Origin: Allostella vacuolata
GTDB taxonomy: Bacteria > Pseudomonadota > Alphaproteobacteria > ATCC43930 > Allostellaceae
Direction of reading: 5' to 3'
Assembly: GCA_006739055.1 (NCBI GenBank)
Contig: AP019702.1
Span: forward strand, 4,613,388 to 4,677,387
Length of the DNA: 64,000 bases
Positions 10,348-60,983 of this stretch are shown one piece after another. The stretch's first letter is position 1, and each line of letters starts with the position of its first letter. The notes beneath the pieces were generated by a model. That model saw only the letters and a program-made list of their open reading frames with translations. It had not been told where the DNA came from and did not search any database. A program made the translations under genes and the position numbers.

Positions 10348-10854
10348 TCAACGCTTCCGCTCGGTATATCCCTGGAGCCTGGCCAGCCCGATGGCCACCC
10401 GCATATGTGGCTGCTCCATCGCTGCAGCCTCATCAAATTCGACCGCGCGCCACTCCGCTCCCTTCGCGGCTTCGGGAAGGAGGGCACCATCCACGGCATA
10501 TAGTTCCCGGGCGCCGGCCGTCCGGCCGAACTCAAGCGCCTCCACGAAATGCCGAACCGGCGGCAGTGCGACGCCTGCATCCGCGGAAAAGTATGGTGTC
10601 CTTGGTGCCCGGCCGAACTTCCAGTCCTGGAGCATCCGGCGGAGGCCTTCCGCCGACAGCATCTCGCGACCGTCCTGGAAAATGCCCCAGACATCGTAGC
10701 CAGGCCGCTGCTGCAGCGCGACAGCGTGCGCAAGCGCGTCCGGCCAAGGCTCGAAGCTGTCAACCAGACGATTGACCGGCTTGACCGCCTGAATGCTCCG
10801 GGGGTTCCGCGGGGATACGAGAGGCCCATCCAGATAGATGACGTCGAACGGCAT
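10348..10854 (-). CDS. Hypothetical protein, no family recognised
   Basis: Protein of 168 residues that I do not recognise. It begins MPFDVIYLDGPLVSPRNP, has no signal peptide, membrane segment or Cys cluster, and carries a charged, Arg- and Glu-rich C-terminus. Motif-like stretches are GYDVWGIFQDGREMLS and LYAVDGALLPEAAKGAEWRA. GAGGGGG lies a few bases before the ATG and codon third positions are GC-rich, so it looks like a real gene. It is convergent with the Fic gene and sits between Fic and tRNA-Gly, in the accessory stretch. It could be island cargo or a poorly conserved chromosomal gene. Confidence 0.6.
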   Translation of the reverse strand: MPFDVIYLDGPLVSPRNPRSIQAVKPVNRLVDSFEPWPDALAHAVALQQRPGYDVWGIFQDGREMLSAEGLRRMLQDWKFGRAPRTPYFSADAGVALPPVRHFVEALEFGRTAGARELYAVDGALLPEAAKGAEWRAVEFDEAAAMEQPHMRVAIGLARLQGYTERKR

Positions 10855-42163: not shown

Positions 42164-43330
42164 ATGGACCTGTCCTTCACCCCCGAGCAGGAGGCGATCC
42201 GCGCCCAGGTCGAGCGGATCTGCGCCCGCTTCGGCCTCGATTACTGGCGCGCGCGCGACGAGGACGGGCGCTTTCCCGACGCGTTCGTGGCCGCGATCGC
42301 CGAGGGCGGGTGGCTCGGCATCGCCATGCCGCCCGACTATGGCGGGGCCGGGCTCGGCATCACCGAGGCCGCCCTGATGCTGCAGACGATCGCCGAATCC
42401 GGCGCCGCCATGGCCGGGGTCTCGGCCGTGCACATGAACATCTTCGGCCCCAACCCGATCGCGGTGTTCGGCACGCCCGAGCAGAAGGCGCGGTTCCTGC
42501 CGCCCTTGATCGCCGGCCGCGAGCGCGCCTGCTTCGGCGTGACGGAGCCGGACGCGGGGCTCGACACCAGCCGGCTCGGCACCCGGGCGGTGCTGGACGG
42601 CGACCGCTACATCGTCAACGGCCGCAAGATCTGGACCTCGACCGCCCAGACCGCCCACAAGATCCTGCTGCTCGCCCGGACCACGCCGATCGACCGGTCG
42701 GCCCGGCCGATGGACGGGCTGTCGCTCTTCTACACCGACCTCGACCGGCGCCGCGTCGAGGTGCGGGAGATCGCCAAGATGGGCCGCCATGCGGTCGATT
42801 CGAACGCGCTCTTCATCGACGGGCTGGAGATCCCGGTCGCCGACCGCATCGGCGAGGAGGGCCAGGGCTTCCGCTACCTGCTGCACGGGCTGAACCCCGA
42901 GCGCATCATGGTCGGCGCGGAGGCGATCGGCATCGGCCGCGCCGCACTCGCAAGGGCCGTCCAGTATGCCAAGGACCGCGTCGTCTTCGGCCGGCCGATC
43001 GGCCAGAACCAGGCGATCCAGCACCCGCTGGCCGAGAACTGGATGGAGCTGGAAGCCGCCAACCTGATGATCTTCAAGGCGGCCGGCCTCTACGATCGGG
43101 GCCTGCCCTGCGGGGCCGAGGCCAATGCCGGCAAGTACCTGGGCGCGGAAGCGGCGTTCCGCGCCTGCACCCAGGCGGTCATGACCCATGGCGGCTACGG
43201 CTACGCGGCCGAGTTCCACGTCGAGCGCTTCCTGCGCGAGGTGATGATCTGCCGGATTGCCCCGGTCAGCCCGGAGCTCATCAAGTGCTACGTCGCCGAG
43301 CGTGTGCTGGGGCTGCCGAAGAGCTATTGA
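42164..43330 (+). CDS. Acyl-CoA dehydrogenase
   Basis: Flavoenzyme of 388 residues. Domains are in order: N-terminal helices (LSFTPEQEAIRAQVERI), the beta domain with CFGVTEPDAGLDTSRLGTRA and the FAD loop RKIWTSTAQTAHKILLLAR, and the C-terminal helices with RVVFGRPIGQNQAIQHPLAE and THGGYGYAAEFHVERFLRE. The usual catalytic Glu of medium-chain types (YEGT) is not where expected; the C-terminus resembles CaiA/FadE-like branches. It oxidises an acyl-CoA to the enoyl-CoA. It is convergent with the CoA-transferase operon, so a shared pathway is possible. Confidence 0.9.
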   Translation: MDLSFTPEQEAIRAQVERICARFGLDYWRARDEDGRFPDAFVAAIAEGGWLGIAMPPDYGGAGLGITEAALMLQTIAESGAAMAGVSAVHMNIFGPNPIAVFGTPEQKARFLPPLIAGRERACFGVTEPDAGLDTSRLGTRAVLDGDRYIVNGRKIWTSTAQTAHKILLLARTTPIDRSARPMDGLSLFYTDLDRRRVEVREIAKMGRHAVDSNALFIDGLEIPVADRIGEEGQGFRYLLHGLNPERIMVGAEAIGIGRAALARAVQYAKDRVVFGRPIGQNQAIQHPLAENWMELEAANLMIFKAAGLYDRGLPCGAEANAGKYLGAEAAFRACTQAVMTHGGYGYAAEFHVERFLREVMICRIAPVSPELIKCYVAERVLGLPKSY

Positions 43331-43369: not shown

Positions 43370-43801
43370 TCACGCCAGCACGAACTTCGGCAAGGTCACC
43401 GTCTCGGTCACCTTCTCGAAGACCACCGACACCGGCCGGCCGACCCGCCCCTCGCCGGCATCGGCGCCGACCAGGTTGCTGTAGAGGAGCGGCCCCTCCT
43501 CGAGCTGCACCAGGCAGACACGATAGGGCAGGTCCGCCTTGAAGCCGTCCCAGTAGGCGCGGTGGAACTCCACCCACGAGACGAGCGTGCCGCGCCCGCT
43601 CACCACCTGCCATTCCTGATCGGTGGACAGGCATTCGGGACAGACGGGCGAGGCCGGGAAATGACGGTCGCCGCAGCTGCGGCAGGCCTGTACCGCCAGC
43701 CGCCCCTCGCGCGCCAGGTCCCAGAAGGGCTGGGTCAGCGGCGTCGGCTTCGGCAGGGGCTTGGCGTAGGGCGATGCGGTGGTCGAGCTATCCGAAGGCA
43801 T
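43370..43801 (-). CDS. DUF35 Zn-ribbon/OB-fold protein
   Basis: Protein of 143 residues. Zinc ribbon CRSCGDRHFPASPVCPEC (four Cys) at 40-57, then an OB fold (GRGTLVSWVEFHRAYWDGFK, PYRVCLVQLEEGPLLYSNLV). DUF35 proteins are obligate partners of thiolase-like proteins; with Ltp2 in steroid degradation the pair is a retro-aldolase, elsewhere it supports thiolase or HMG-CoA synthase reactions. The thiolase-like gene is 11 bases upstream in the same operon, so this is very likely its partner. Confidence 0.9.
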   Translation of the reverse strand: MPSDSSTTASPYAKPLPKPTPLTQPFWDLAREGRLAVQACRSCGDRHFPASPVCPECLSTDQEWQVVSGRGTLVSWVEFHRAYWDGFKADLPYRVCLVQLEEGPLLYSNLVGADAGEGRVGRPVSVVFEKVTETVTLPKFVLA

Positions 43802-43812
43802 CCGACGTCTCC

Positions 43813-44946
43813 TCAGCCGCGGGTGTAGATGATGGAGCGAGTGCAGACCGTGGCTGCGATGTACTGGGCGACCTCGCACCCCGGCACCTGGCGGTCGCCG
43901 CATTCGCCGCGCACCTGGCGCACCGCCTCGACGTTGAGCGCCCAGCCCTGCATGTAGGAGTTCGACAGGTGGCCGCCGTCGGTGTTGGTCGGCAGGCGGC
44001 CGCCCACCTTCAATGTGCCGCCCTCGACGAAGCGACCGGATTCGCCACGCGGACAGAAGCCCAGCCCTTCCAGGCTGAACAGCACGGTCGGGCTGAAATT
44101 GTCGTAGGACATCAGCACGTCGACATCGTCCCGCGCGACCCCGGCCATGCGGTAGGATTCCTCGCCCGACTCGCGGATCGGCCCGTGCCAGAAATCGAGA
44201 TCGAAGGTGCCGAGCGCGGACTGCCGGAAGCGGTCGCGCCCGCCGACGCCGGAGACCAGGACGGGCGGCTTCTTCAGGTCCCGGGCGCGCTCGGCGGTGG
44301 TCAGGATCAGGCACACCGCCCCGTCGGTGATGAGGCAGTAGTCGAGCAGGCCGAGCGGGGCCGCGATGCGCCGTGCCTCCTCATGGTCGTCGATGGTGAT
44401 CGGCTTGCGCATCACCGCGTCGGGATTGAGTCCGGCATTGTGGCGAATGGCGACCGAGACCTCGGCCAGCTGCCGGGTGGTGGTGCCGTACATCGCCATG
44501 TGGCGCTGGAACATCATCGCGTGGGCGGCCCCGGGCGAGGTCATACCCCACGGGTCCCAGATGTTCGGGCTCTCGTCGCCGCCATAGTTGACCCGGCGCG
44601 AGCGGCCGATGTTGGCGTAGATCAATGCCGCGTACTTCGCCCGGCCGGTCGCCAGCGCGGCCGTCGCCTCGATGATCGCCATGCCGGACATCCGGCCGTG
44701 CGCGGGCAGGGTGATGGTCCAGCGCGGGTCGATGCCCAGCACCTCGCCCATGCGCGCATAGGACGGGATGCGGTTCACCAGCAGGCCGTCGATCTGCGAC
44801 TTGTCGAGCCCGCAATCGGCGATCGCCTTGCCGAACGCCTCCGCCCCCAGCCCGTATTCGTCGGTCTCGGGAAAGCTGCCGTAGCGGGTCGTGCCGACGC
44901 CGACCACGGCGACCATGTTCTTCAGGTCCTGGAAATCGGACATCAT
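43813..44946 (-). CDS. Thiolase-like protein lacking the nucleophilic Cys (Ltp type)
   Basis: Thiolase-fold protein of 377 residues: VAVVGVGTTRYGSFPETDEY at the start, GGHLSNSYMQGWALNVEAVR near the end. Where true thiolases have the nucleophilic Cys followed by a helix, it reads HGRMSGMAIIEATAALATGR, without Cys, so Claisen thiolysis is unlikely. The pattern fits lipid-transfer/SCPx-like proteins, some of which act with DUF35 as retro-aldolases that cut a C-C bond in a CoA ester. The DUF35 partner is next in the operon, and the gene overlaps the upstream SMP-30 gene by four bases. Confidence 0.88.
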   Translation of the reverse strand: MMSDFQDLKNMVAVVGVGTTRYGSFPETDEYGLGAEAFGKAIADCGLDKSQIDGLLVNRIPSYARMGEVLGIDPRWTITLPAHGRMSGMAIIEATAALATGRAKYAALIYANIGRSRRVNYGGDESPNIWDPWGMTSPGAAHAMMFQRHMAMYGTTTRQLAEVSVAIRHNAGLNPDAVMRKPITIDDHEEARRIAAPLGLLDYCLITDGAVCLILTTAERARDLKKPPVLVSGVGGRDRFRQSALGTFDLDFWHGPIRESGEESYRMAGVARDDVDVLMSYDNFSPTVLFSLEGLGFCPRGESGRFVEGGTLKVGGRLPTNTDGGHLSNSYMQGWALNVEAVRQVRGECGDRQVPGCEVAQYIAATVCTRSIIYTRG

Positions 44947-45887
44947 GCAGCCCCCGTGCGGCCGTGGAAGGCGAAGGTCGGCTCGAGGATGCCGCGCACC
45001 CCGGGCCTGCAGCGGAAGACCGAGCCGGCCAGCGGCTCCCGCGCCCGGGCCGCGGCATCGGCGTAGTGCGAGCTGGAGGTCGTGAGGTAGAGCGTGTCGA
45101 GGTCGGCGCCGCCGAACGCCACCATGGTCGGGATCATGGTCGGCGCCTGGAGCTCGCGGTCGAGCGTGCCGTCGGGCCGGTAGCGCAGGATGCGGCCGCC
45201 GCGGATCATCGCCACCCAGTAGCCGCCCTCGGCATCGACCGTGGCACCGTCCGGCGAGCCGCCGTCCAGGTCGACACGGAAGAAGACCCGCCGGTTGCTG
45301 GGGGTGCCGGTCTCGATGTCGTAATCGAAGGCCAGTACCTGGCGGTTCGGGCCGTCGGCGATATACATGGTGCGGTTGTCGGGGCTCCAGGCCAGGCCGT
45401 TGGCGATCGACACGCCCGGGATCACCGCCTGGAACCCGCGCTGGTCGAGCCGATAGAAATGCGCGTTGCCATGGGGCAGGGGCGAAGTGTGCAGCCGCAT
45501 GCTGCCGACCCAGAACCGGCCCTGCCGATCGCAGCGCCCGTCGTTCAGACGGTAATGCGCCGGGTCGTAGGGGGCGGCGTGCAGCAGCGTCAGGGCGCCG
45601 GTCGCGAAATCGAGATCATGGACCCCGCTCTGCAGCGCCACCACCGCGCCGCCGCCCTCGCGCCACAGCGCGAAGGAGCCGATCGGCGACGGCAAGGTCC
45701 AGGACCGTTCCGCCCCGCCGGCCAGATCGGTGCGGTAGAGCCTGGGCGCGCGGATGTCGATCCAGTAGAGGACGTCGCCCTCCATCCCGGCCCAGACCGG
45801 GATCTCGCCGATCTCGGCCTGGCGCTCGACGACGCATTCCCACTCCGGCGTTTCCCGCGTCACGCGCCGCTCCGTCTTCGCTTGCAT
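44943..45887 (-). CDS. SMP-30/gluconolactonase-family protein
   Basis: Six-bladed beta-propeller of 314 residues. The metal-binding Glu appears in GEIPVWAGMEGDVLYWIDIR, the Asn in HYRLNDGRCDRQGRFWVGSM, a second Asn in SIANGLAWSPDNRTMYIADG, and the Asp in that last motif. Family members open lactones or esters with a divalent metal. No signal peptide. Its ATG shares a base with the stop of the CoA-transferase gene (TGATG), so it is read on the same message; it may hydrolyse a lactone intermediate in the pathway. Confidence 0.9.
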   Translation of the reverse strand: MQAKTERRVTRETPEWECVVERQAEIGEIPVWAGMEGDVLYWIDIRAPRLYRTDLAGGAERSWTLPSPIGSFALWREGGGAVVALQSGVHDLDFATGALTLLHAAPYDPAHYRLNDGRCDRQGRFWVGSMRLHTSPLPHGNAHFYRLDQRGFQAVIPGVSIANGLAWSPDNRTMYIADGPNRQVLAFDYDIETGTPSNRRVFFRVDLDGGSPDGATVDAEGGYWVAMIRGGRILRYRPDGTLDRELQAPTMIPTMVAFGGADLDTLYLTTSSSHYADAAARAREPLAGSVFRCRPGVRGILEPTFAFHGRTGAA

Positions 45888-48514
45888 CAGATGACCCCAT
45901 CTTCGGCGAGCCTGGCGATGGCGGCGGTCGAGTAGCCGAGCAACTCGCCCAGCACATACTCGTTGTCCTCGCCATAGCAGGGCGCGCCGCGATCGATCGG
46001 CCCGCCCGCATGGGTCGGGGTCCGGCTCAGCTTCATCGGCAGTTCCGGCACCGGCCAGGTGCCGATCTTGGTGCCGGTGATCTCCGTCATCCAGTCGAGC
46101 GCCGCCAGCTGCGGATCGTTGTCGCAGCGGTCGGCCGCCGTCTGGCAGACCCCCGCCGGGACGCCGGCCGCCTGGAGCGCATACATGCACGCATAGGGCT
46201 CCTGGGTCCGGGTCCACGATCCGACCGCCTGCTCCAGCGCATCCTGGTTGGCAAGCCGCGCCGCCAGGGTGACGAAGCGGTCGTCAGCCAGCCATTCCGG
46301 ACGCCCGGCCACCTGCGCCAGCCCCGCCCATTCGGCGTCGGTGAAGCAGGCGATGGCGATCCAGCGATCCTCGCCCGCGCAGCGGAAGGCGCCATGCGGG
46401 GCGGCCGGCTTGTAGGGCGAGCGGTTGCCGTAGCGGGTCCAGGGGCGGCCGTTGGCCGACCAGTCGAGCGTCGCCGCACCCGCCAGGAAGATCCCGGATT
46501 CGCATTGCGATGAGTCGATCCACTGCCCCTCGCCGGTCCGCGCGCGATGGTAGACGGCGCCGATGATCGCCATGGCGAAGCCGTAGGCGCCCACCCAGTC
46601 GAGGTAGGAATAGCCCCAGCCGACCGGCATCGCCGGCTCCGGCAGGCCCGACATGTCGGAGGTGCCGGCAAAGGCGGCCGCCACCGGGCCGATGGTGCGG
46701 AAGCGGCCATACTGGCCGATGCTGCCCATGCCCGACTGCTGGACGTAGATGATGTCCGGCTTGATCGATTTCATGACATCGTAGCCGAGCCCCAGCCGGT
46801 CGAGCACGCCCGGCGAGAAGCCTTCGGCGACGACGTCGGAGATAGCGACCATGCGCCGGGCGATCTCCAGTCCCTCGGGGTGGCGGATGTTGAGCGACAG
46901 GCCGCGCTTGCCGGCGTTCTTGTTGTTGAACTGGCCGCCCATGTCCGGGTCCTTAACCCCCGGCAGGGGCGCGGTCGCCGCCTGCCGCGCGGCGCGGCCG
47001 CCGATCGGCGCCATGGCTGCCAGGCGCGTGTCGGGGTTCTCCTTCCACTCGACCTTGATCGATTCGGCGCCGAGACCGGCCAGCAGGCGGGTGCCGCCGG
47101 CCGATGCCAGGAACCAGGAGAAATCGAAGATGCGGATATTCTGCAGCGCGAACGGCGTGCCGTGGCGCGACAGCGTCGGCGCGTCGGCAGGCGCCGTCGT
47201 GCGCGGCCGGGGCTCGACCTTCGGCCGTTTCGCCGCCGCCAGGACCGCCTCGCCGTCCTCGTCCAGCCGCGGTGCCCGGCGGCCGACCTGCCAGCTGGTG
47301 GCGTCGCTCAGCCACTTGCTGCTGGCGTAGCGGAACGCGCGGCCCTCTTCGGGGTGGTCGACGTCGGCGAAGGTCTGCCGCATCAGCCAATGCGGATCGA
47401 GCGCGTTCTCGTGCGGCTTGCGCAGGGGCGCCCACAGCAGGCCGGCGTCCTGCGCCGCGCGCCACGGCAGGTTCTCGTAGGTGTGCGCGCGGACGAAGCG
47501 GTGGGCCACCTCCAGCGCGTGGGCCGTCTTCTCGTCGGTCGGCGACGACCCGGGGATGTTGCGCGCCCGGAGGTCGGCCTCTCCGCTCGGCGCCTGCAGG
47601 TCGGCCGCCATGCCGTAGCCGGCCAGGAAGGGCGTCGCCTTGGCCTGGTCGCGCGGGGTGACGCCGGCGGTGATGCACCAGCGGCCGTCCTTGGTGATGC
47701 CGATATAGGGCACCCGGTTCGGGTTCTCCGAGGCGTGGCGGCAGGTCTGGCGATAGACCGGCGCCCGCCGCATGACCCAGGACATGACGTCGATCTCGGT
47801 GTTCTTCGACACCGCCTCGTGGATGGCGCAGGACACGTCCTGACCCTCGCCGGTCGCCTCGCGGTGGATCAGGGCCGCGATGATGGCGATGGTCAGCTGC
47901 TCGCCCGCGATGTGGTAGGCGTGCCAGGCCTGCGGGGCGATCGGCGGCAGGTCGTAGCGCCCTTGCGGATCCGAATCGTAGCCGCAGTTCATCATGATCC
48001 CGCCCAGCGCCAGGTGGATCAGGTCGGACGCCTTGAAGTCCCGCCACGGGCCGGTGTCGCCGAACGGCGTGATTCGCGCGGTCAGGAGGCGGGGAAAGCG
48101 CGCCCGCAGGCCTGCGGCGTCATGGCCGACCTTGCGGTCGAGCTCGCCGCAGGTGCCGTCCAGCAGGATGTCGGCACCGTCCAGCAGTTCCAGGAACGCC
48201 GTCTCGCCCGCGTCGCCATCGAGGTCGAGCACGGCCGACTTCTTGGCCCGGTTGTAGTACCAGAAATAGATCGAGCGCTCGGGATCGGGCGTATCGCCGA
48301 GGAACGGCCCGATCCGGCGCGTGCTGTTGCCGCCCGGCGGCTCGACCTTGACCACCTCGGCACCCAGCCCGGCCAGGAGCAGGCCCACATAGTCGCTGCG
48401 CTCGTCCCCGAGCTCGATCACGCGCAAGCCCGCGAGGATGCCCGGCTTGGCCGCCGCGCCGCTGGGCGCGTCCTCCGGCAGTTCGTCTTGGGCGCGGTTC
48501 TCCGTCCGTGTCAT
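45887..48514 (-). CDS. Tandem CaiB/BaiF-type (family III) CoA-transferase
   Basis: Protein of 875 residues made of two CoA-transferase halves, about 25-430 and 455-875; single enzymes are about 400. The second half has the catalytic Asp at 639 in SYLDWVGAYGFAMAIIGAVY. In the first half the same position, aligned without gaps to HR-x-x-TGEGQ, is Tyr 200 (WHAYHIAGEQLTIAIIAALI), so only the C-terminal half looks able to form the aspartyl-CoA intermediate. Family III enzymes normally work as interlocked dimers, and the fusion may form that pair within one chain. It likely activates an imported carboxylate. GAGAGGAA precedes the ATG. Confidence 0.9.
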   Translation of the reverse strand: MTRTENRAQDELPEDAPSGAAAKPGILAGLRVIELGDERSDYVGLLLAGLGAEVVKVEPPGGNSTRRIGPFLGDTPDPERSIYFWYYNRAKKSAVLDLDGDAGETAFLELLDGADILLDGTCGELDRKVGHDAAGLRARFPRLLTARITPFGDTGPWRDFKASDLIHLALGGIMMNCGYDSDPQGRYDLPPIAPQAWHAYHIAGEQLTIAIIAALIHREATGEGQDVSCAIHEAVSKNTEIDVMSWVMRRAPVYRQTCRHASENPNRVPYIGITKDGRWCITAGVTPRDQAKATPFLAGYGMAADLQAPSGEADLRARNIPGSSPTDEKTAHALEVAHRFVRAHTYENLPWRAAQDAGLLWAPLRKPHENALDPHWLMRQTFADVDHPEEGRAFRYASSKWLSDATSWQVGRRAPRLDEDGEAVLAAAKRPKVEPRPRTTAPADAPTLSRHGTPFALQNIRIFDFSWFLASAGGTRLLAGLGAESIKVEWKENPDTRLAAMAPIGGRAARQAATAPLPGVKDPDMGGQFNNKNAGKRGLSLNIRHPEGLEIARRMVAISDVVAEGFSPGVLDRLGLGYDVMKSIKPDIIYVQQSGMGSIGQYGRFRTIGPVAAAFAGTSDMSGLPEPAMPVGWGYSYLDWVGAYGFAMAIIGAVYHRARTGEGQWIDSSQCESGIFLAGAATLDWSANGRPWTRYGNRSPYKPAAPHGAFRCAGEDRWIAIACFTDAEWAGLAQVAGRPEWLADDRFVTLAARLANQDALEQAVGSWTRTQEPYACMYALQAAGVPAGVCQTAADRCDNDPQLAALDWMTEITGTKIGTWPVPELPMKLSRTPTHAGGPIDRGAPCYGEDNEYVLGELLGYSTAAIARLAEDGVI

Positions 48515-49698: not shown

Positions 49699-49783
49699 CT
49701 CGCGTCAACCTTGTCTTCTTATGGAAGGGGCCGCCTTCGTTTCCATCCCGCGCCCGCCGGCCAGCGCCGGGGATGCGGACAGG

Positions 49784-49812
49784 ATGCTAGGCGTCGGCCG
49801 ACCGCAGGGCAA
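49784..49812 (-). promoter_or_regulatory. Promoter of the ATPase/CoA-transferase operon
   Basis: Minus strand TTGCCC and TAGCAT with a 17-base spacer; start site near 49777, 79 bases before the ATPase ATG. The same spacing and context occur at the binding-protein promoter at 53.8 kb. Confidence 0.6.
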
Positions 49813-49834
49813 AGACAGAGAAAGTATCCTGCTT

Positions 49835-49849
49835 ATGCTGTGGCGGCAT
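49835..49849. promoter_or_regulatory. LysR-type box, copy 1 (ATGCTG-TGG-CGGCAT)
   Basis: A T-N11-A dyad with one mismatch between arms. Its centre is about 65 bases upstream of the predicted start of the ATPase operon, the classic LysR recognition-site position. It sits in a 44-base block (49810-49853) with CAAAGACAG, ATCC, TTATGC and CGGCAT at the same spacing as copy 2, 31 of 44 bases being identical. Confidence 0.7.
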
Positions 49850-49910
49850 GAATGGTGAGTTTGGGCTAGAGTGCCGGGCCCAGAACGGCGCGGACAGGAC
49901 ACGAGCCCCG

Positions 49911-50840
49911 ATGGAGATCAAGGAACTCCGCTATTTCAAGGCGATCGCCGAGCTGAGCAGCTTCTCCAAGGCGGCCGTCCAGCTGCGCATCGCCCAGCCG
50001 GCGCTGAGCCGGCAGATGCAGAAGCTGGAGCGCGACCTGGGCACCGACATCTTCCTGCGCCAGGGGCGCACGATCAGCCTGACCGCGGCCGGAAGGGTCC
50101 TGCTCGGCGAGGTCGACCAGATCCTGCGCCAGCTCGAGCTGACGCGGCTGGCCGTCGTCGGCACGACCAGCCAGGCGACCGGGCACCTGTCGCTCGGCGT
50201 CACCCCGGCCACCGGCCGGCTGCTGGTGCCGCGGCTGCTGGAGCGCTATCGCGAGCGCTGTCCGGCAGTGACCATCCACGTCGTCGAGGGCTTCAGCGGC
50301 TATCTGCATGAATGGCTGGTCAACGGCCGCGCCGACCTTGCCATCCTGCACAATCCCAGCCATTCGCCCGAGCTGGTCATCAAGCCGCTGATCATCGAGG
50401 AGATGCACCTGATCAGCACCGCCGACCGGGCGGAGGCGATGCAGGACAACTACCGGCTCTACGACGCGGCGATGCTGCCGCTGATCCTGCCGCGGCGGCC
50501 GCACAGCCTGCGCAGCCTGATCGAATCCACCTTCGCCGGGCAGCGGCTGCCGACCAGGCCGATCATCGAGGTGGACGGCTACTCGACCCTGAAGGGGCTG
50601 GTGCGCAAGGGACTGGGCTACACCATCATGACCTATGGCAGCGTCGCCGAGGACATCGCCCGCGGCGAGCTGTGCGCCGCCCCGATCCGCCTGCCGACCG
50701 TGGTCTGGACGCTGTCGACGGCCGTGCGCAACGAATTGCGCGGCAATCAGGCGGTGAAGGAGATGCTGGAGCTGATCCAGGAGGAAACCGAGGCCCTGGT
50801 CGAGAAGGGCCTGTGGCGCGGCGAGATCTTCCGCGCCTGA
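49911..50840 (+). CDS. LysR-family regulator, probable activator of the flanking operons
   Basis: Protein of 309 residues. The helix-turn-helix begins at once (MEIKELRYFKAIAELSSFSK, then LRIAQPALSRQMQKLE), followed by the effector-binding domain (HLSLGVTPATGRLLVPRLLE onward). An earlier in-frame ATG would place the LysR box inside the coding region and add 21 residues foreign to the family, so the later ATG is used. It is divergent from the ATPase operon and convergent with the permease gene. Paired boxes at both leftward promoters make it the likely regulator of both; the inducer should be the imported substrate or a CoA derivative. Confidence 0.93.
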   Translation: MEIKELRYFKAIAELSSFSKAAVQLRIAQPALSRQMQKLERDLGTDIFLRQGRTISLTAAGRVLLGEVDQILRQLELTRLAVVGTTSQATGHLSLGVTPATGRLLVPRLLERYRERCPAVTIHVVEGFSGYLHEWLVNGRADLAILHNPSHSPELVIKPLIIEEMHLISTADRAEAMQDNYRLYDAAMLPLILPRRPHSLRSLIESTFAGQRLPTRPIIEVDGYSTLKGLVRKGLGYTIMTYGSVAEDIARGELCAAPIRLPTVVWTLSTAVRNELRGNQAVKEMLELIQEETEALVEKGLWRGEIFRA

Positions 50841-50862
50841 GCGGACGATCCCGCCGCCCCTC

Positions 50863-52626
50863 CTACTTCACCAGCGCCTTCTCGATCTGCACCCGGAAGA
50901 TTGCCCGGGTGACCAGGACCAGGCCCATCATCATCAGGCTCTGGATGACGCCGACGGCGGCGGCGAACTGGTAGTTGCCGGCATCCATGTAGTGCCAGGT
51001 CAGCACCGACAGCACCTGGCTTCGCTGGCTGTAGAGCAGCACCGATGCCGACAGCTCCTTGATGCTCATCAGCATGACGAAGAAGAGGATGGCGATCAGG
51101 GTCGGCTTCAGAAGCGGCATGACGACCTTCTGCACGCTCTGCAGCCCGGTCGCGCCGGACATGCGCGCGCCCTCCGCCAGCTCGGGGTGGATCTGCAGGA
51201 TGGCCGAACGGCTGACGATCACGCCATAGGGCAGGAACTTCGCGACGTAGGCCAGCAGCAGCACCCAGGGCGTGCCGTAGAGCGGCGTCTGGATGTAGAT
51301 CCACAACAGGCCGATGCCGTAGACGAGGCCGGGCACGGCGACCGGCAGCACCCCCATGAAGGCCAGCGACTTGGTGGCGAGGCTCGGCCGGCGCACCTCC
51401 ATGAAGCTGATGAGGAAGCCGGCCAGCACGCAGATGACCGCGCTCGCGACGGCCAGCCAGCTCGTGTTCCACAGGGCCTGGCGCATGCTGGGCAGCGCGA
51501 AGATCTCCCGGTAGTGGTTGAGGGTGAAGAGATCGGCGGTCAGGGCGGGCGCGGTGTACTTCATCACCGAGGACAGCAGGAGCGCCCCGAACGGCAGCAC
51601 GACCGCCGACAGCACATAGACGGCGATCCACAGGATCGCGATCCATTTCCAGCCGCCCAGCGGCAGCGGGTTGCCGCGGAAGCCCTTGCCGGTGATCGTC
51701 ACGAACCGCTCGGCGCGCCGCGTGATCCGGCGCTGCAGCCAGATGCCGAAGATGGTGATCCACAGCAGCAGCGTGCCGGAGGCGGCAGCATGGGCGCGGT
51801 GCACCGGAAAGACCGTCGAATCCTCGTAGATCTTCCATGGCAGGGTGGTGAAGCCGGCGTTGGAGCCGATGATGCCGGGGATGGTGTACATCTCGGCCGC
51901 CAGGATGAAGATCAGCAGGCCGGACGCCACGATCGCCGGCAGGGCGAGCGGCAACGTCACCCGCACCAGGGCCTGGACGGCGGTCGCCCCGTTCATTCGC
52001 GCCGCCTCCTCCAGCGAGGAGTCCATCGCCCGCAGGTTGCCGACCGTGAACAGGTAGGCGAACGGGCAGAAGAAGATCACCATGATCCAGGCGACGCCGC
52101 CGAAGGACCAGATGTTCATGAGCGGCCCGGGATCGAGCCCGACCGTGTTGAGGACGGCCGAGATCGCGCCGTTGATGAAGCCCGTCTTCTCCGACCCCAG
52201 CATGATCCAGGCGATCAGGCCGGTGAAGGGCGACAGAAACAGCGGCGTGATGATCAACAGGTCGATCACCCGCTTGGCGGGCAGGTCGGTGCGCCCGACC
52301 AGCAGCGCCATGGTGACCCCGATCGCCACCGACAGCATGGTGACCAGCACCGCCAGCAGCATGGCGAGCGCCAGGTAGCCCAGATATTCCGAACCCGTAT
52401 AGACGTTGAGCACCGCCTGCAGGCTGCGCTGGGCGCTGAGGCCGACGCGCGTCTCGCGATAGAAGGCGGCATCGACCGTGTAGAGCAGCGGCACGATCGC
52501 CACGATGAAGACGGCGCCGGCCAGGAACAGCCAGAGGATACGCTCGCCGGTCCAGCGCCACAGGAACCCGGGCACCGGGCCGGGCCGCGCCGAAGGCGCG
52601 AGGCCGATGTCGGAAGAAACGGTCAT
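50863..52626 (-). CDS. Fused ABC permease (FbpB/ThiP-like, two modules)
   Basis: Inner-membrane permease of 587 residues with about 12 hydrophobic segments in two copies of the binding-protein-dependent module. Both EAA loops are present: SLEEAARMNGATAVQALVRV and LAEGARMSGATGLQSVQKVV. This double permease is typical of Fe3+, 2-aminoethylphosphonate and thiamine importers. It follows the binding-protein gene by 25 bases on the same strand; the ATPase is encoded in the operon beyond the LysR gene. Confidence 0.93.
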   Translation of the reverse strand: MTVSSDIGLAPSARPGPVPGFLWRWTGERILWLFLAGAVFIVAIVPLLYTVDAAFYRETRVGLSAQRSLQAVLNVYTGSEYLGYLALAMLLAVLVTMLSVAIGVTMALLVGRTDLPAKRVIDLLIITPLFLSPFTGLIAWIMLGSEKTGFINGAISAVLNTVGLDPGPLMNIWSFGGVAWIMVIFFCPFAYLFTVGNLRAMDSSLEEAARMNGATAVQALVRVTLPLALPAIVASGLLIFILAAEMYTIPGIIGSNAGFTTLPWKIYEDSTVFPVHRAHAAASGTLLLWITIFGIWLQRRITRRAERFVTITGKGFRGNPLPLGGWKWIAILWIAVYVLSAVVLPFGALLLSSVMKYTAPALTADLFTLNHYREIFALPSMRQALWNTSWLAVASAVICVLAGFLISFMEVRRPSLATKSLAFMGVLPVAVPGLVYGIGLLWIYIQTPLYGTPWVLLLAYVAKFLPYGVIVSRSAILQIHPELAEGARMSGATGLQSVQKVVMPLLKPTLIAILFFVMLMSIKELSASVLLYSQRSQVLSVLTWHYMDAGNYQFAAAVGVIQSLMMMGLVLVTRAIFRVQIEKALVK

Positions 52627-52651
52627 CGCTCGCCCCTCGACCGGAAGAGCC

Positions 52652-53749
52652 CTACTGGGCCCGGATCAGGTTGATCCAGAAGCCCATGTCCTTGTCGTAC
52701 TGGGCTGCCCAGCGGTCGTAGTCGGGCTCGTAGACCTTGGTGATCGGCTTGTACCAGGGCTCCTTGCGCACGTCGCGCAGGTCTTCCGAGCCGGCCAGCA
52801 GCGGTGCCGAACCGTAGCGCGCCTGGAAGGCGGCGAGGCCGGCCTCGCTGGTGATCCAGTTCTGGAACAGGCGGGCGGCGTTGGGGTGCGGGGCGTGGCT
52901 GGAGACCCCCTGGAAGACCAGGGCGGCGACCGGCGTCGGCTCCGGCCGGACCCAGCGGATCGGCGCGCCCTGGCGCCACCGCGCCATCGCCCCGTTCTCG
53001 AAGCTCCAGTAGGCGAAGTCGACCTCGCCCGCGATCACCCGGTCGAGGACGACCAGCACGTCGGAATAGACGACGGGCTTCTGGGCGGCCAGCTTGCGCA
53101 CGAAGTCCGGCCCGTAGGTGCCCTTCAGCTTGGGGTCCATGAACATGTGCAGTGCCAGGTAGCAGGTGCCGCACTTCTGGGTGGTGACGGCGAAGCGCCC
53201 CTTGAAGCGCGGATCGAGGATCGCCTTCCAGTCGCTGGCCAGCAGCGCCACCTCTTCCGGGGTCACCTTGTTGGCGTTGTAGACGATGGAACTGTCGCTG
53301 ACATATTGGGCATAGGCTGCGGTGCCGAGCCGGGCCTGCGCCGGCAGCCGGTCATGGGACGGCACCTTCCATGATGCCAGGTGCTTCTCCTCGGCAAGCG
53401 ATTCCATCAACGGCCGGTCGGAGATGCTGACCAGGTCGGCCGTGTGCTGCCCGGCCTGCGTCTCCTGCATGAATCGCTGGTACTGCTGCGGGCCGACGAT
53501 GCGGAGCACCTCGACCTTGACGCCGGGATAGGCCTTCTCGAACTCCGTGGCGACCGCCTTCATCGGCTCCAGCGGCGCGCTGATGTACCAGACCAGCTTG
53601 CCTTCCTGTTTGGCGAGCTCCAGCAGCTTCGCCTCGTCGGACGGGTCCGGGAAGGTCTGGGCGGCGGCCGGGGCCGCCAGGAGCGCGACGGCGGCGGCGG
53701 ACACTGCGAATGCCTTGAGGCCGGTGGTGAACCGGCGGATGCATGTCAT
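52652..53749 (-). CDS. ABC substrate-binding protein (Fe3+/2-aminoethylphosphonate family)
   Basis: Periplasmic protein of 365 residues with a Sec signal peptide (LKAFAVSAAAVALLAAPAAA then Q). The fold is that of AfuA/PhnS-type proteins: GKLVWYISAPLEPMKAVATE, NANKVTPEEVALLASDWKAI, GVSSHAPHPNAARLFQNWIT. The Tyr pair used by ferric-binding proteins is not evident at the C-terminus, so an organic ligand is more likely. GGGAG is eight bases before the chosen ATG. It opens the uptake operon behind a LysR-type box; ligand unknown. Confidence 0.9.
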   Translation of the reverse strand: MTCIRRFTTGLKAFAVSAAAVALLAAPAAAQTFPDPSDEAKLLELAKQEGKLVWYISAPLEPMKAVATEFEKAYPGVKVEVLRIVGPQQYQRFMQETQAGQHTADLVSISDRPLMESLAEEKHLASWKVPSHDRLPAQARLGTAAYAQYVSDSSIVYNANKVTPEEVALLASDWKAILDPRFKGRFAVTTQKCGTCYLALHMFMDPKLKGTYGPDFVRKLAAQKPVVYSDVLVVLDRVIAGEVDFAYWSFENGAMARWRQGAPIRWVRPEPTPVAALVFQGVSSHAPHPNAARLFQNWITSEAGLAAFQARYGSAPLLAGSEDLRDVRKEPWYKPITKVYEPDYDRWAAQYDKDMGFWINLIRAQ

Positions 53750-53796
53750 GGCGTATTCTCCCGACTTCTTTTGCACTCGAACGCGAATTGGCCAGC

Positions 53797-53825
53797 ACGG
53801 TATGTCAGCCCCCGCCGCGAGACAA
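53797..53825 (-). promoter_or_regulatory. Promoter of the binding-protein/permease operon
   Basis: Minus strand TTGTCT and TACCGT with a 17-base spacer; start site near 53790, about 40 bases before the ATG. It matches, base for base in layout, the promoter of the ATPase operon. Confidence 0.6.
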
Positions 53826-53847
53826 AGACAGTCGAGGCATCCGATTT

Positions 53848-53862
53848 ATGCCGATCCGGCAT
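53848..53862. promoter_or_regulatory. LysR-type box, copy 2 (ATGCCG-ATC-CGGCAT)
   Basis: Perfect 6-bp inverted repeat with T-N11-A form, centred about 65 bases upstream of the predicted start of the binding-protein operon. It lies in the second copy of the 44-base block (53823-53866) shared with the ATPase operon. Confidence 0.7.
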
Positions 53863-53910
53863 CAATACTGCGGCGAGGGCGGGGCGGACGACCGACGCCG
53901 GCCCGTCCGG

Positions 53911-55431
53911 TCACCGATAGACGAAAACCGGGTCGTCGAGGTCGATCGCCGGGAACGCGTCCTTCTCGGCCCAGTAGTCCTGGGTGTGCTGCCATTCGGG
54001 CTTGTCGCCGCGGCGCGGCAGCAGGTGCATCCCCCGCATCAGATAGCCGGGGTTGAAGTTCTCCGGGTCGATCCAGGGCAGGATCGGCATGTCGCGGTCC
54101 TCCGGCCGCAGCGCCGGCTCGACGCTGGCGGCGCCCTTGGCCGTCATGTGCTTCAGCAGGCGGCAGACGAAGTCGCCCACCAGGTCGGCCCGGAGCGTCC
54201 AGCTGGCGCGGAAATAGCCGAACACCCAGGCGAGGTTGGGCACGCCCGTGAACATCATGCCGCGATAGGTGACCGTGCCGGAGAAGTCGAGCCGCCGGCC
54301 GTCGATCGAGAAAGCGATGTCGCCCAGCACGTTGAGATGGAAGCCGGTCGCGGTCACGACGATGTCCGCCTCCAGCTCCCGGCCCGAGCCAAGGCGGATG
54401 CCCGATGCGGTGAAGCGGTCGATCTCGTCGGTGATGACCGAGGCGGTGCCGGCGCGGACCGCCTGGAACAGGTCGCCGTCGGGGATGAAGGCGATGCGCT
54501 GCTGCCACGGCCGGTAGCCGGGGGTGAAGTCCGTCGCCACGTCGTAGTCGGGCCCGAGATAGGCGCGGACGCCGGACAGCAGCTCCTGCCGCACCGTCTC
54601 CGGCTCCTCGAAGCAGCGCCGGGTGAACACCGACTGGTCGTAGAGGATCTTCTGGCGCACGATCTCGTGGATCCAGTCCTCGCGGATCTGCAGCTGGCGC
54701 AGTTCGTCGGCGAGCTGGATGGCGTTGCGCCCGGTGCGGAAGAAGGTCGGCGTGCGCTGCAGCATGGTGACGTGGGAGCAACGGCCGGCGATTGCCGGCA
54801 CCAGCGTCGCCGCGGTGGCGCCGGAGCCGATCACCACCACCCGCCGGCCGGCGAGGTCGAGGTCGTCGGGCCAGGTCTGCGGATGCACGACCCGGCCGCG
54901 GAAGTCGGCGAGCCCCGGCCATTCGGGCGTGTAACCCTCGGCGTGGCGGTAGTAGCCCTGGCACATCCACAGGAAGCGCGCGGTGAAGCGCCGGGGCCGG
55001 CCCGTGTCGGTGCGGCCCGTGTCGGTGCGGACCACCTCGACCGTCCACAGGTTGGTCTCGCTCGACCAGCTGGCGGCGGCGATGGCGTGGCCGTAGCGGA
55101 TGTGGCGGGCGAGGTCGTTCTCGTCGATCACCTCGCCCATGTAGCGCAGGATCTCCTCGGAGGTGGCGATCGGGGCCCCGGTCCAGGGCTTGAAGCGGTA
55201 GCCGAAGGTGTAGAGGTCGCTGTCCGAGCGGATGCCGGGGTAACGGTGGGTGCGCCAGGTGCCGCCGAAGCCGCTCTGGGCCTCCAGCACCGCGAAGCTC
55301 GTGCCGGGGCACTGCGTCGTCAGGTGATAGGCGGCGCCGACCCCGGATATCCCCGCGCCCACGACCAGGACGTCGAAATGCTCCGCGGTCCGGGATGCGC
55401 CGGCGGTTGCGGTCTCGGTGCTGTCCATCAT
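53911..55431 (-). CDS. FAD-dependent Baeyer-Villiger-type monooxygenase
   Basis: Flavoprotein of 506 residues. FAD site VLVVGAGISGVGAAYHL near the N-terminus, NADPH site VVVIGSGATAATLVPAIAG, and between them the Baeyer-Villiger fingerprint FRGRVVHPQTWP at 177-188. It inserts oxygen into ketones or oxidises heteroatoms, using NADPH and O2. Residues 136-145 are a 5-residue tandem repeat (RTDTG twice) from a 15-base duplication. It lies 19 bases downstream of an alpha/beta-hydrolase gene on the same strand, a common pairing in which the ester formed is then hydrolysed. It ends just upstream of the LysR-controlled promoter. Confidence 0.9.
   Translation of the reverse strand: MMDSTETATAGASRTAEHFDVLVVGAGISGVGAAYHLTTQCPGTSFAVLEAQSGFGGTWRTHRYPGIRSDSDLYTFGYRFKPWTGAPIATSEEILRYMGEVIDENDLARHIRYGHAIAAASWSSETNLWTVEVVRTDTGRTDTGRPRRFTARFLWMCQGYYRHAEGYTPEWPGLADFRGRVVHPQTWPDDLDLAGRRVVVIGSGATAATLVPAIAGRCSHVTMLQRTPTFFRTGRNAIQLADELRQLQIREDWIHEIVRQKILYDQSVFTRRCFEEPETVRQELLSGVRAYLGPDYDVATDFTPGYRPWQQRIAFIPDGDLFQAVRAGTASVITDEIDRFTASGIRLGSGRELEADIVVTATGFHLNVLGDIAFSIDGRRLDFSGTVTYRGMMFTGVPNLAWVFGYFRASWTLRADLVGDFVCRLLKHMTAKGAASVEPALRPEDRDMPILPWIDPENFNPGYLMRGMHLLPRRGDKPEWQHTQDYWAEKDAFPAIDLDDPVFVYR
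54998..55027. repeat. 15-bp tandem duplication inside the monooxygenase gene
   Basis: CGGCCCGTGTCGGTG occurs twice in a row and adds five residues in frame (RTDTG repeated) in a loop before the Baeyer-Villiger fingerprint. The frame is kept, so the protein is probably unharmed. Confidence 0.9.
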
Positions 55432-58943: not shown

Positions 58944-60921
<1,978 letters not shown>

Positions 60922-60983
60922 AGGGCGCAATCCTTCGAAGAATACCGTTTGGCCATGAGTTTCACGGCCGCATCCTTTCAAAA

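Follow-up and report, generated by a model that had tools for sequence, protein, structure and literature searches.

A candidate LysR operator pair before two operons for uptake and CoA-dependent breakdown in Allostella vacuolata

The lysR locus and its two control blocks

We analysed a 64,000-nucleotide stretch of the Allostella vacuolata genome (contig AP019702.1, forward-strand positions 4,613,388 to 4,677,387; hereafter the window), in which a gene for a LysR-type regulator is located between two minus-strand operons and runs in the opposite direction. Operon 1 carries the ATPase of an ATP-binding cassette (ABC) transporter together with a coenzyme A (CoA)-transferase and further enzyme-like genes, and operon 2 carries a permease and a binding protein. 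An earlier reading of this DNA, the first-pass annotation, had placed a LysR gene between two copies of a 44-base block, one upstream of each operon, and lysR indeed lies there. The genes, blocks and dyads are as follows (positions in the window).

49911-50840, plus strand: lysR regulator, 309 amino acids; HTH_1 (N-terminal, E 3.9e-21) and LysR_substrate (C-terminal, E 3e-39), both above gathering scores
48613-49698, minus strand: operon 1, ABC transporter ATPase, PotA/PhnT-like by family profile matches
45887-48514, minus strand: operon 1, fused double family III CoA-transferase, 875 amino acids; halves match 9fn0 A and B
44943-45887, minus strand: operon 1, SMP-30/gluconolactonase-like protein
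43813-44946, minus strand: operon 1, thiolase / lipid-transfer-protein-like enzyme
43370-43801, minus strand: operon 1, ChsH2-type zinc-ribbon oligonucleotide/oligosaccharide-binding (OB)-fold protein
50863-52626, minus strand: operon 2, fused double ABC permease, 587 amino acids
52652-53749, minus strand: operon 2, periplasmic solute-binding protein; the nearest solved chains are iron-transport binding proteins
49810-49853, plus strand: control block copy 1, in the divergent region between lysR and the ATPase/CoA-transferase operon
53823-53866, plus strand: control block copy 2, upstream of operon 2
49835-49849, no strand assigned: T-N11-A dyad of copy 1, ATGCT-N5-GGCAT, one arm mismatch; presumed LysR recognition site
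53848-53862, no strand assigned: T-N11-A dyad of copy 2, ATGCCGATCCGGCAT (ATGCC-N5-GGCAT), perfect; presumed recognition site

The lysR product combines an N-terminal HTH_1 domain with a C-terminal substrate-binding domain, the combination that defines LysR-type regulators. In operon 1, 98 bases separate the ATPase and CoA-transferase genes, and the last four genes abut or overlap. Among solved CoA-transferases, benzylsuccinate CoA-transferase (9fn0) comes nearest to the fused protein: residues 30-427 match its chain A (E 1.3e-32) and residues 455-871 match chain B (E 7.3e-56), which suggests a likeness between the two-part enzymes rather than functional identity; matches to the fused protein at E <= 1e-120 occur in 17 of the 61 genomes searched. 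The ATPase, the permease and the binding protein belong to the same ABC transporter type, but the ATPase is encoded in operon 1 and the other two in operon 2, and co-regulation is therefore needed to build the transporter. Its best scores against the NCBIfam equivalogs fall below the cut-offs (PhnT2, 367 versus 457.7; PhnU2, 128.8 versus 593.25; PhnS, 20.7 versus 395.3) and assign no substrate to it.

The two blocks are identical at 31 of 44 bases when read on the same strand, which agrees with the same-orientation pattern that had been described before both operons. Between the intergenic regions 49699-49910 and 53747-53910, the best ungapped 44-base match has 31 identities in the same orientation and 24 in the opposite one. 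Dinucleotide-shuffled pairs of these regions, with both orientations allowed, gave a mean of 23.8 (standard deviation 1.1) and a maximum of 29, and 0 of 2000 reached 31. The dyad had been described as perfect in one copy and carrying one mismatch in the other, and it is copy 2 that is perfect; a T-N11-A dyad before the target promoter, a mark of a LysR-type operator, is present in both copies.

Both blocks fit the full pattern of the first-pass annotation with 0 mismatches. When this pattern was run over the 5,834,761-base, one-contig genome at up to three mismatches, it returned only these two blocks (reversed control, 0) and not the many unrelated promoters whose appearance had been named at the outset as counter-evidence. 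The dyad with its flanking TT/AA, searched genome-wide at up to two mismatches, gave 10 rows, three of which are the two sites, one of them read on both strands; the reversed control gave 11. Within the window, at up to three mismatches, the dyad with flanks gave seven matches versus 2.6 expected, four of them being the two sites on both strands. The dyad alone is not specific at up to two mismatches; the whole block is.

Two neighbouring genes lie close to these features. A flavin monooxygenase-like gene (53911-55431) ends just before block copy 2 on the same strand. Lying upstream of the box, it should not be under its control. An acyl-CoA dehydrogenase gene (42197-43330, plus strand) runs towards the end of operon 1, where the block pattern has no match.

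Conservation of the block pair in a distant relative

Judged from homology searches, the window LysR is rare. These searches score the first five or six candidates per genome, and misses are possible. Two of the three same-genus genomes gave no LysR match at E <= 1e-40, and the third has two at 36-37%. Among 385 genomes of the class, the best relative outside the own genome is found in a member of another order, G095 (E 4.3e-86, 46% identity; next E 6.6e-70). A reciprocal search with the G095 LysR returned the window LysR as the best match outside G095 (E 1.8e-85, 47%; next E 3.3e-75), and the two proteins have SFSKAA..LRIAQPALSRQ in common in the DNA-binding domain. A phylum sample of 398 genomes added one further relative at E <= 1e-62 (40%), the best plasmid match was 38.7% among the 20 matches listed, and a scan of genome contigs found one 30% relative. 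The binding protein of operon 2 had no match at E <= 1e-50 outside the own genome, either among 61 or among 240 genomes. Neither LysR nor the binding protein has a close match in the three same-genus genomes.

The G095 locus (L037) comprises 19,001 bases of one contig that holds lysR and both sites. It was searched with the dyad ATGCY-N5-GGCAT, which had been composed from the window alone before the G095 sequence was read. The exact dyad occurs twice, whereas 1000 shuffles gave a mean of 0.05 and none reached 2. The first occurrence (10373-10387) is in the region that separates lysR from a divergently oriented CoA-transferase gene, and the second (17131) precedes a DctP-DctQ-DctM-SMP30-thiolase-OB operon. 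Absence of the block from orthologous promoters with both operons kept had been named as further counter-evidence; in this nearest LysR relative of the class sample, whose operons are analogous, the dyad and the rest of the block are present twice. As in the window, the G095 lysR gene is located between two minus-strand operons and runs in the opposite direction. The 15-mer ATGCCGATCCGGCAT of window copy 2 is identical to the one upstream of the related lysR in G095. In the seven loci of weaker LysR relatives (L038-L044), the exact dyad was found in two, once each and away from the LysR start (L039 and L041, at least 1.7 kilobases (kb) from it). When the 300 bases upstream of nine LysR genes were compared, the dyad was common to the window and L037 only. 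A separate dyad with an exact core and 7-base perfect arms, immediately beyond the 3' end of a LysR relative from G082 (L079:1456-1499; 44% identical to the G095 LysR), was set aside as perhaps a terminator hairpin. To the left of the boxed promoter in the G095 locus, the region L037:485-9038 contains three thiolase-like and three OB-fold matches, two CoA-transferases and a Cyclase-family gene, all on the minus strand.

The four copies from the window and G095 were aligned by their dyads, with nine block columns fixed beforehand by the search pattern. Invariant columns make up 18 of 44 in the block but 7 of 141 in the flanking sequence. Of the block columns that the pattern did not fix, 9 of 35 are invariant; when the G095 pair was slid by 1-60 bases either way, the mean was 2.6 and the maximum 7, so that 0 of 120 positions reached 9. 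The additional invariant columns are one G within the dyad and, ahead of it, an AT at 9-8 bases and a C.AA.ACA group at 25-18 bases. In the direction of the operons, the AT and C.AA.ACA groups read ATRSY-N5-TGTYT; in all four copies the centre of this element and that of the dyad are 22 bases apart, or about two helical turns. We infer that this element, itself only a partial dyad, is the activation site; its columns are invariant in the four copies, and in the window it lies at the following positions.

49813-49827, minus strand: presumed activation site copy 1, ATACT-N5-TGTCT; its centre lies 22 bases from that of the dyad
53826-53840, minus strand: presumed activation site copy 2, ATGCC-N5-TGTCT

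The combined pattern AARACA-N17-ATGCY-N5-GGCAT matched seven times in five of the 385 class genomes (reversed control, 0 among the rows listed). Two matches in one genome were seen only in A. vacuolata and G095, and these four are the promoters described here. The single block matches in the three other genomes (G047, G290, G307) are taken as chance, because their 3-kb loci contain no match to the ten window proteins at E <= 1e-3. At up to two mismatches, the block pattern gave one further match in the own genome (control 1), two in G095 (control 0) and one or two in each of the three same-genus genomes.

For promoter prediction, every -35 position whose start falls 8 to 67 bases beyond the dyad centre was considered and the top-scoring -35/-10 pair was taken; in the window this gave two candidates.

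49784-49812, minus strand: predicted promoter of operon 1, TTGCCC (49812-49807), 17 bases, TAGCAT (49789-49784); consensus match only
53797-53825, minus strand: predicted promoter of operon 2, TTGTCT (53825-53820), 17 bases, TACCGT (53802-53797); consensus match only

The first-pass annotation had put the dyad centre about 65 bases before a predicted start, and the distance is 65 bases in both window copies, measured to promoters that are weak consensus matches. The top pair falls in the same place in all four copies: measured from the dyad centre, the TTG is at 29-30 and the predicted start at 64-65 bases; for each copy, 89 to 112 of 2000 shuffles placed the best pair at 64-65. The block had also been described as a LysR box plus promoter. 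A recognition site with a probable activation site is the better description: of the promoter, only the -35 TTG reaches the block edge, and the -10 boxes lie outside it. The geometry does recur in two copies, but these are a pair within one genome and not, as had been claimed, independent; the independent evidence comes from G095.

The genes under the two block pairs differ in part. The second operon of G095 encodes a tripartite ATP-independent periplasmic (TRAP) transporter (DctPQM) that is unrelated to the ABC type of the window, whereas family III CoA-transferases, SMP-30, a thiolase and an OB-fold protein are common to both boxed sets. A paralogue near G000:C1:2272826 in the own genome shares 75% identity with the window thiolase, and same-genus counterparts share 75-77%; the G095 thiolase under box 2 shares 41%, and another G095 thiolase about 8 kb from the lysR shares 56%. 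The window CoA-transferase is 68-70% identical to the genus copies versus 27-34% to those of G095. A second copy of the module in the own genome (G000:C1:2262000-2281900, L045) has a CoA-transferase, a thiolase and an OB-fold protein with 70%, 75% and 65% identity, respectively, and the three same-genus genomes examined also contain module copies. The exact dyad is absent from all seven loci with CoA-transferase copies (L045-L051), and these loci have no match to LysR or SMP-30. These copies seem to form a module of their own, found in the genus and its kin. Near the L045 copy lie genes for an IclR-type regulator, TctC, TctA and a family-5 binding protein, so this copy is neutral evidence on the regulon. 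SMP-30 occurs in both boxed sets but not in the genus module loci, which suggests a lactone step specific to the regulon.

Elsewhere in the window, a chaperonin pair of the Cpn60 and Cpn10 families occupies 58944-60981.

Proposed activation of both operons

We consider it very probable, at roughly 0.86, that the two blocks are operator-promoter units of the LysR protein encoded between them, which would activate both operons for the uptake and CoA-dependent breakdown of one compound. The two-operon regulon put forward in the first-pass annotation is supported by the rarity of the block and by the dyad and block pair of G095. One dimer of a LysR tetramer would anchor at ATGCY-N5-GGCAT, whose centre precedes the predicted start by about 65 bases. 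The second dimer would contact the weaker conserved site ATRSY-N5-TGTYT, which lies 22 bases nearer the promoter and at its far edge touches or overlaps the -35 TTG. The tetramer would change its grip once it binds a ligand, which is probably either the compound taken up or the first product made from it. It could then activate operon 1 (ABC ATPase, fused CoA-transferase, lactonase-like protein, thiolase and OB-fold partner) and likewise operon 2 (binding protein and permease), and with both operons on, one complete transporter would be made. The lysR start codon follows the centre of copy 1 at a distance of 69 bases, a position that would suit autoregulation.

The same position of copy 1, adjoining the lysR start, is found in autorepressing LysR systems, and the recognition site is often involved in repression, according to PMC8407307. 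Repression of both operons by LysR, instead of activation, is nevertheless improbable: the layout of a dyad near -65 plus a second conserved site next to the -35 box is that of an activator, and a pure repressor needs no site at -65. Another regulator, encoded elsewhere, might recognise the blocks and leave the LysR gene a bystander, given that the genome yields 46 first-look candidates for LysR relatives. We regard this as very improbable, since the LysR gene adjoins its own block copy in both genomes, the block pair occurs in the 385-genome sample only in two genomes with mutually best LysR genes, and T-N11-A is a LysR signature. That the second block is a rearrangement copy of the first with no regulatory meaning can practically be dismissed: an identity of 31/44 within one genome could arise by copying, but G095 has the same pair arrangement before non-homologous transporter genes, with the same columns kept.

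Several observations weigh against activation of both operons by this LysR through the blocks. The system was seen in one other genome only, and that genome, G095, is 87% complete with 5% contamination and is the sole member of its order in the sample. With one mismatch allowed, the dyad has four further matches on the plus strand of L037, and, at up to one mismatch, 9 of the 14 other loci scanned contain it at least once. It is absent from the 300 bases upstream of all seven weaker LysR relatives (35-41%). The four-copy matrix has weak matches without the dyad beside other LysR genes (18-23 bits versus 56-59); one of these, at 23 bits in G148 (L085:2422-2465, minus strand), lies directly upstream of a LysR gene 37% identical to that of G095. 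The pattern AARACA-N17-ATGCY-N5-GGCAT was composed after the G095 copies were known and was shaped by them, so its matches measure rarity only and are no blind test. The predicted promoters are weak: their scores were reached by 112 and 953 of 2000 shuffles for window copies 1 and 2, and by 584 and 93 for the other two copies. Because the -35 TTG overlaps conserved block columns, the four promoter placements are not fully independent. Finally, the window enzymes have closer relatives than those of G095, which makes the operons analogous and not orthologous in the strict sense.

The control unit appears to be common to both lineages, and the transporter and the enzymes appear to have been exchanged or refilled. 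More tentatively, and with less than even confidence, we suggest that a portable unit of LysR, dyad and activation site has been kept across orders, while the transporter is non-homologous and the enzymes were refilled from a paralogous module of the genus. What defines the one-compound regulon would then be the switch and not the set of genes, and a lactone or the corresponding hydroxy acid would be the candidate substrate. What was a one-genome guess has become a footprint-backed prediction that is testable with one protein and two DNA fragments. The link of an ABC transporter here, and of a TRAP transporter in another order, with CoA-dependent breakdown genes of similar kinds restricts the range of compounds to be considered. 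The locus is a small but clear example of a regulatory circuit that appears more lasting than its target genes.

Comparison with known systems

The window shares the ATPase, permease and binding-protein superfamilies with ABC transporters of the 2-aminoethylphosphonate, polyamine and iron types (PhnSTU, PotABCD and ferric), but its scores against PhnS, PhnT2 and PhnU2 fall short of the cut-offs and its genes are split over two operons around the LysR gene. On the enzyme side, the window resembles the benzylsuccinate CoA-transferase 9fn0 in having a two-part family III CoA-transferase and differs in the fusion of both parts into 875 amino acids. Like the benzoylsuccinyl-CoA thiolase subunit 7pxp, its thiolase stands beside an OB-fold zinc-ribbon protein; the added lactonase-like gene sets the window apart. 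The thiolase/OB-fold pair of operon 1 presumably resembles the BbsB/BbsA pair. Against NCBIfam BbsB, the window thiolase scores 84.1 versus a cut-off of 750 and is thus not classed as that equivalog; no search for other benzylsuccinate genes was made.

The G095 locus is a further counterpart. It has a related LysR, the same dyad and spacing, a lysR gene between two minus-strand operons and the same enzyme types. It differs from the window in its TRAP transporter DctPQM, which takes the place of the ABC transporter, in its two separate CoA-transferases, and in the position of the lactonase, thiolase and OB genes, which follow the transporter under box 2 and not box 1.

Among LysR regulators with recognition and activation sites, BenM, CatM and OxyR resemble the window system in several respects: the HTH_1 and LysR_substrate domains, a T-N11-A dyad at about -65 of the predicted start, the divergent gene arrangement and a second conserved site, here a presumed activation site, between dyad and -35. 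The window differs from them in its dyad, ATGCY-N5-GGCAT, in its predicted target genes and presumably in its ligand. Solved LysR chains are only general relatives of the window protein, the best being OxyR 4x6g (E 6e-23). PMC8407307 describes LysR regulators as having a dyad near -65 and, at the promoter, an activation site, and the predicted geometry here is in line with this; PMC11739112 describes a LysR tetramer whose two DNA-binding units occupy the recognition and activation sites. The mechanism proposed here is standard for LysR regulators. As far as a limited search of the open-access literature reaches, what is new is the regulon, its operator, and an operator pair kept with an unlike transporter.

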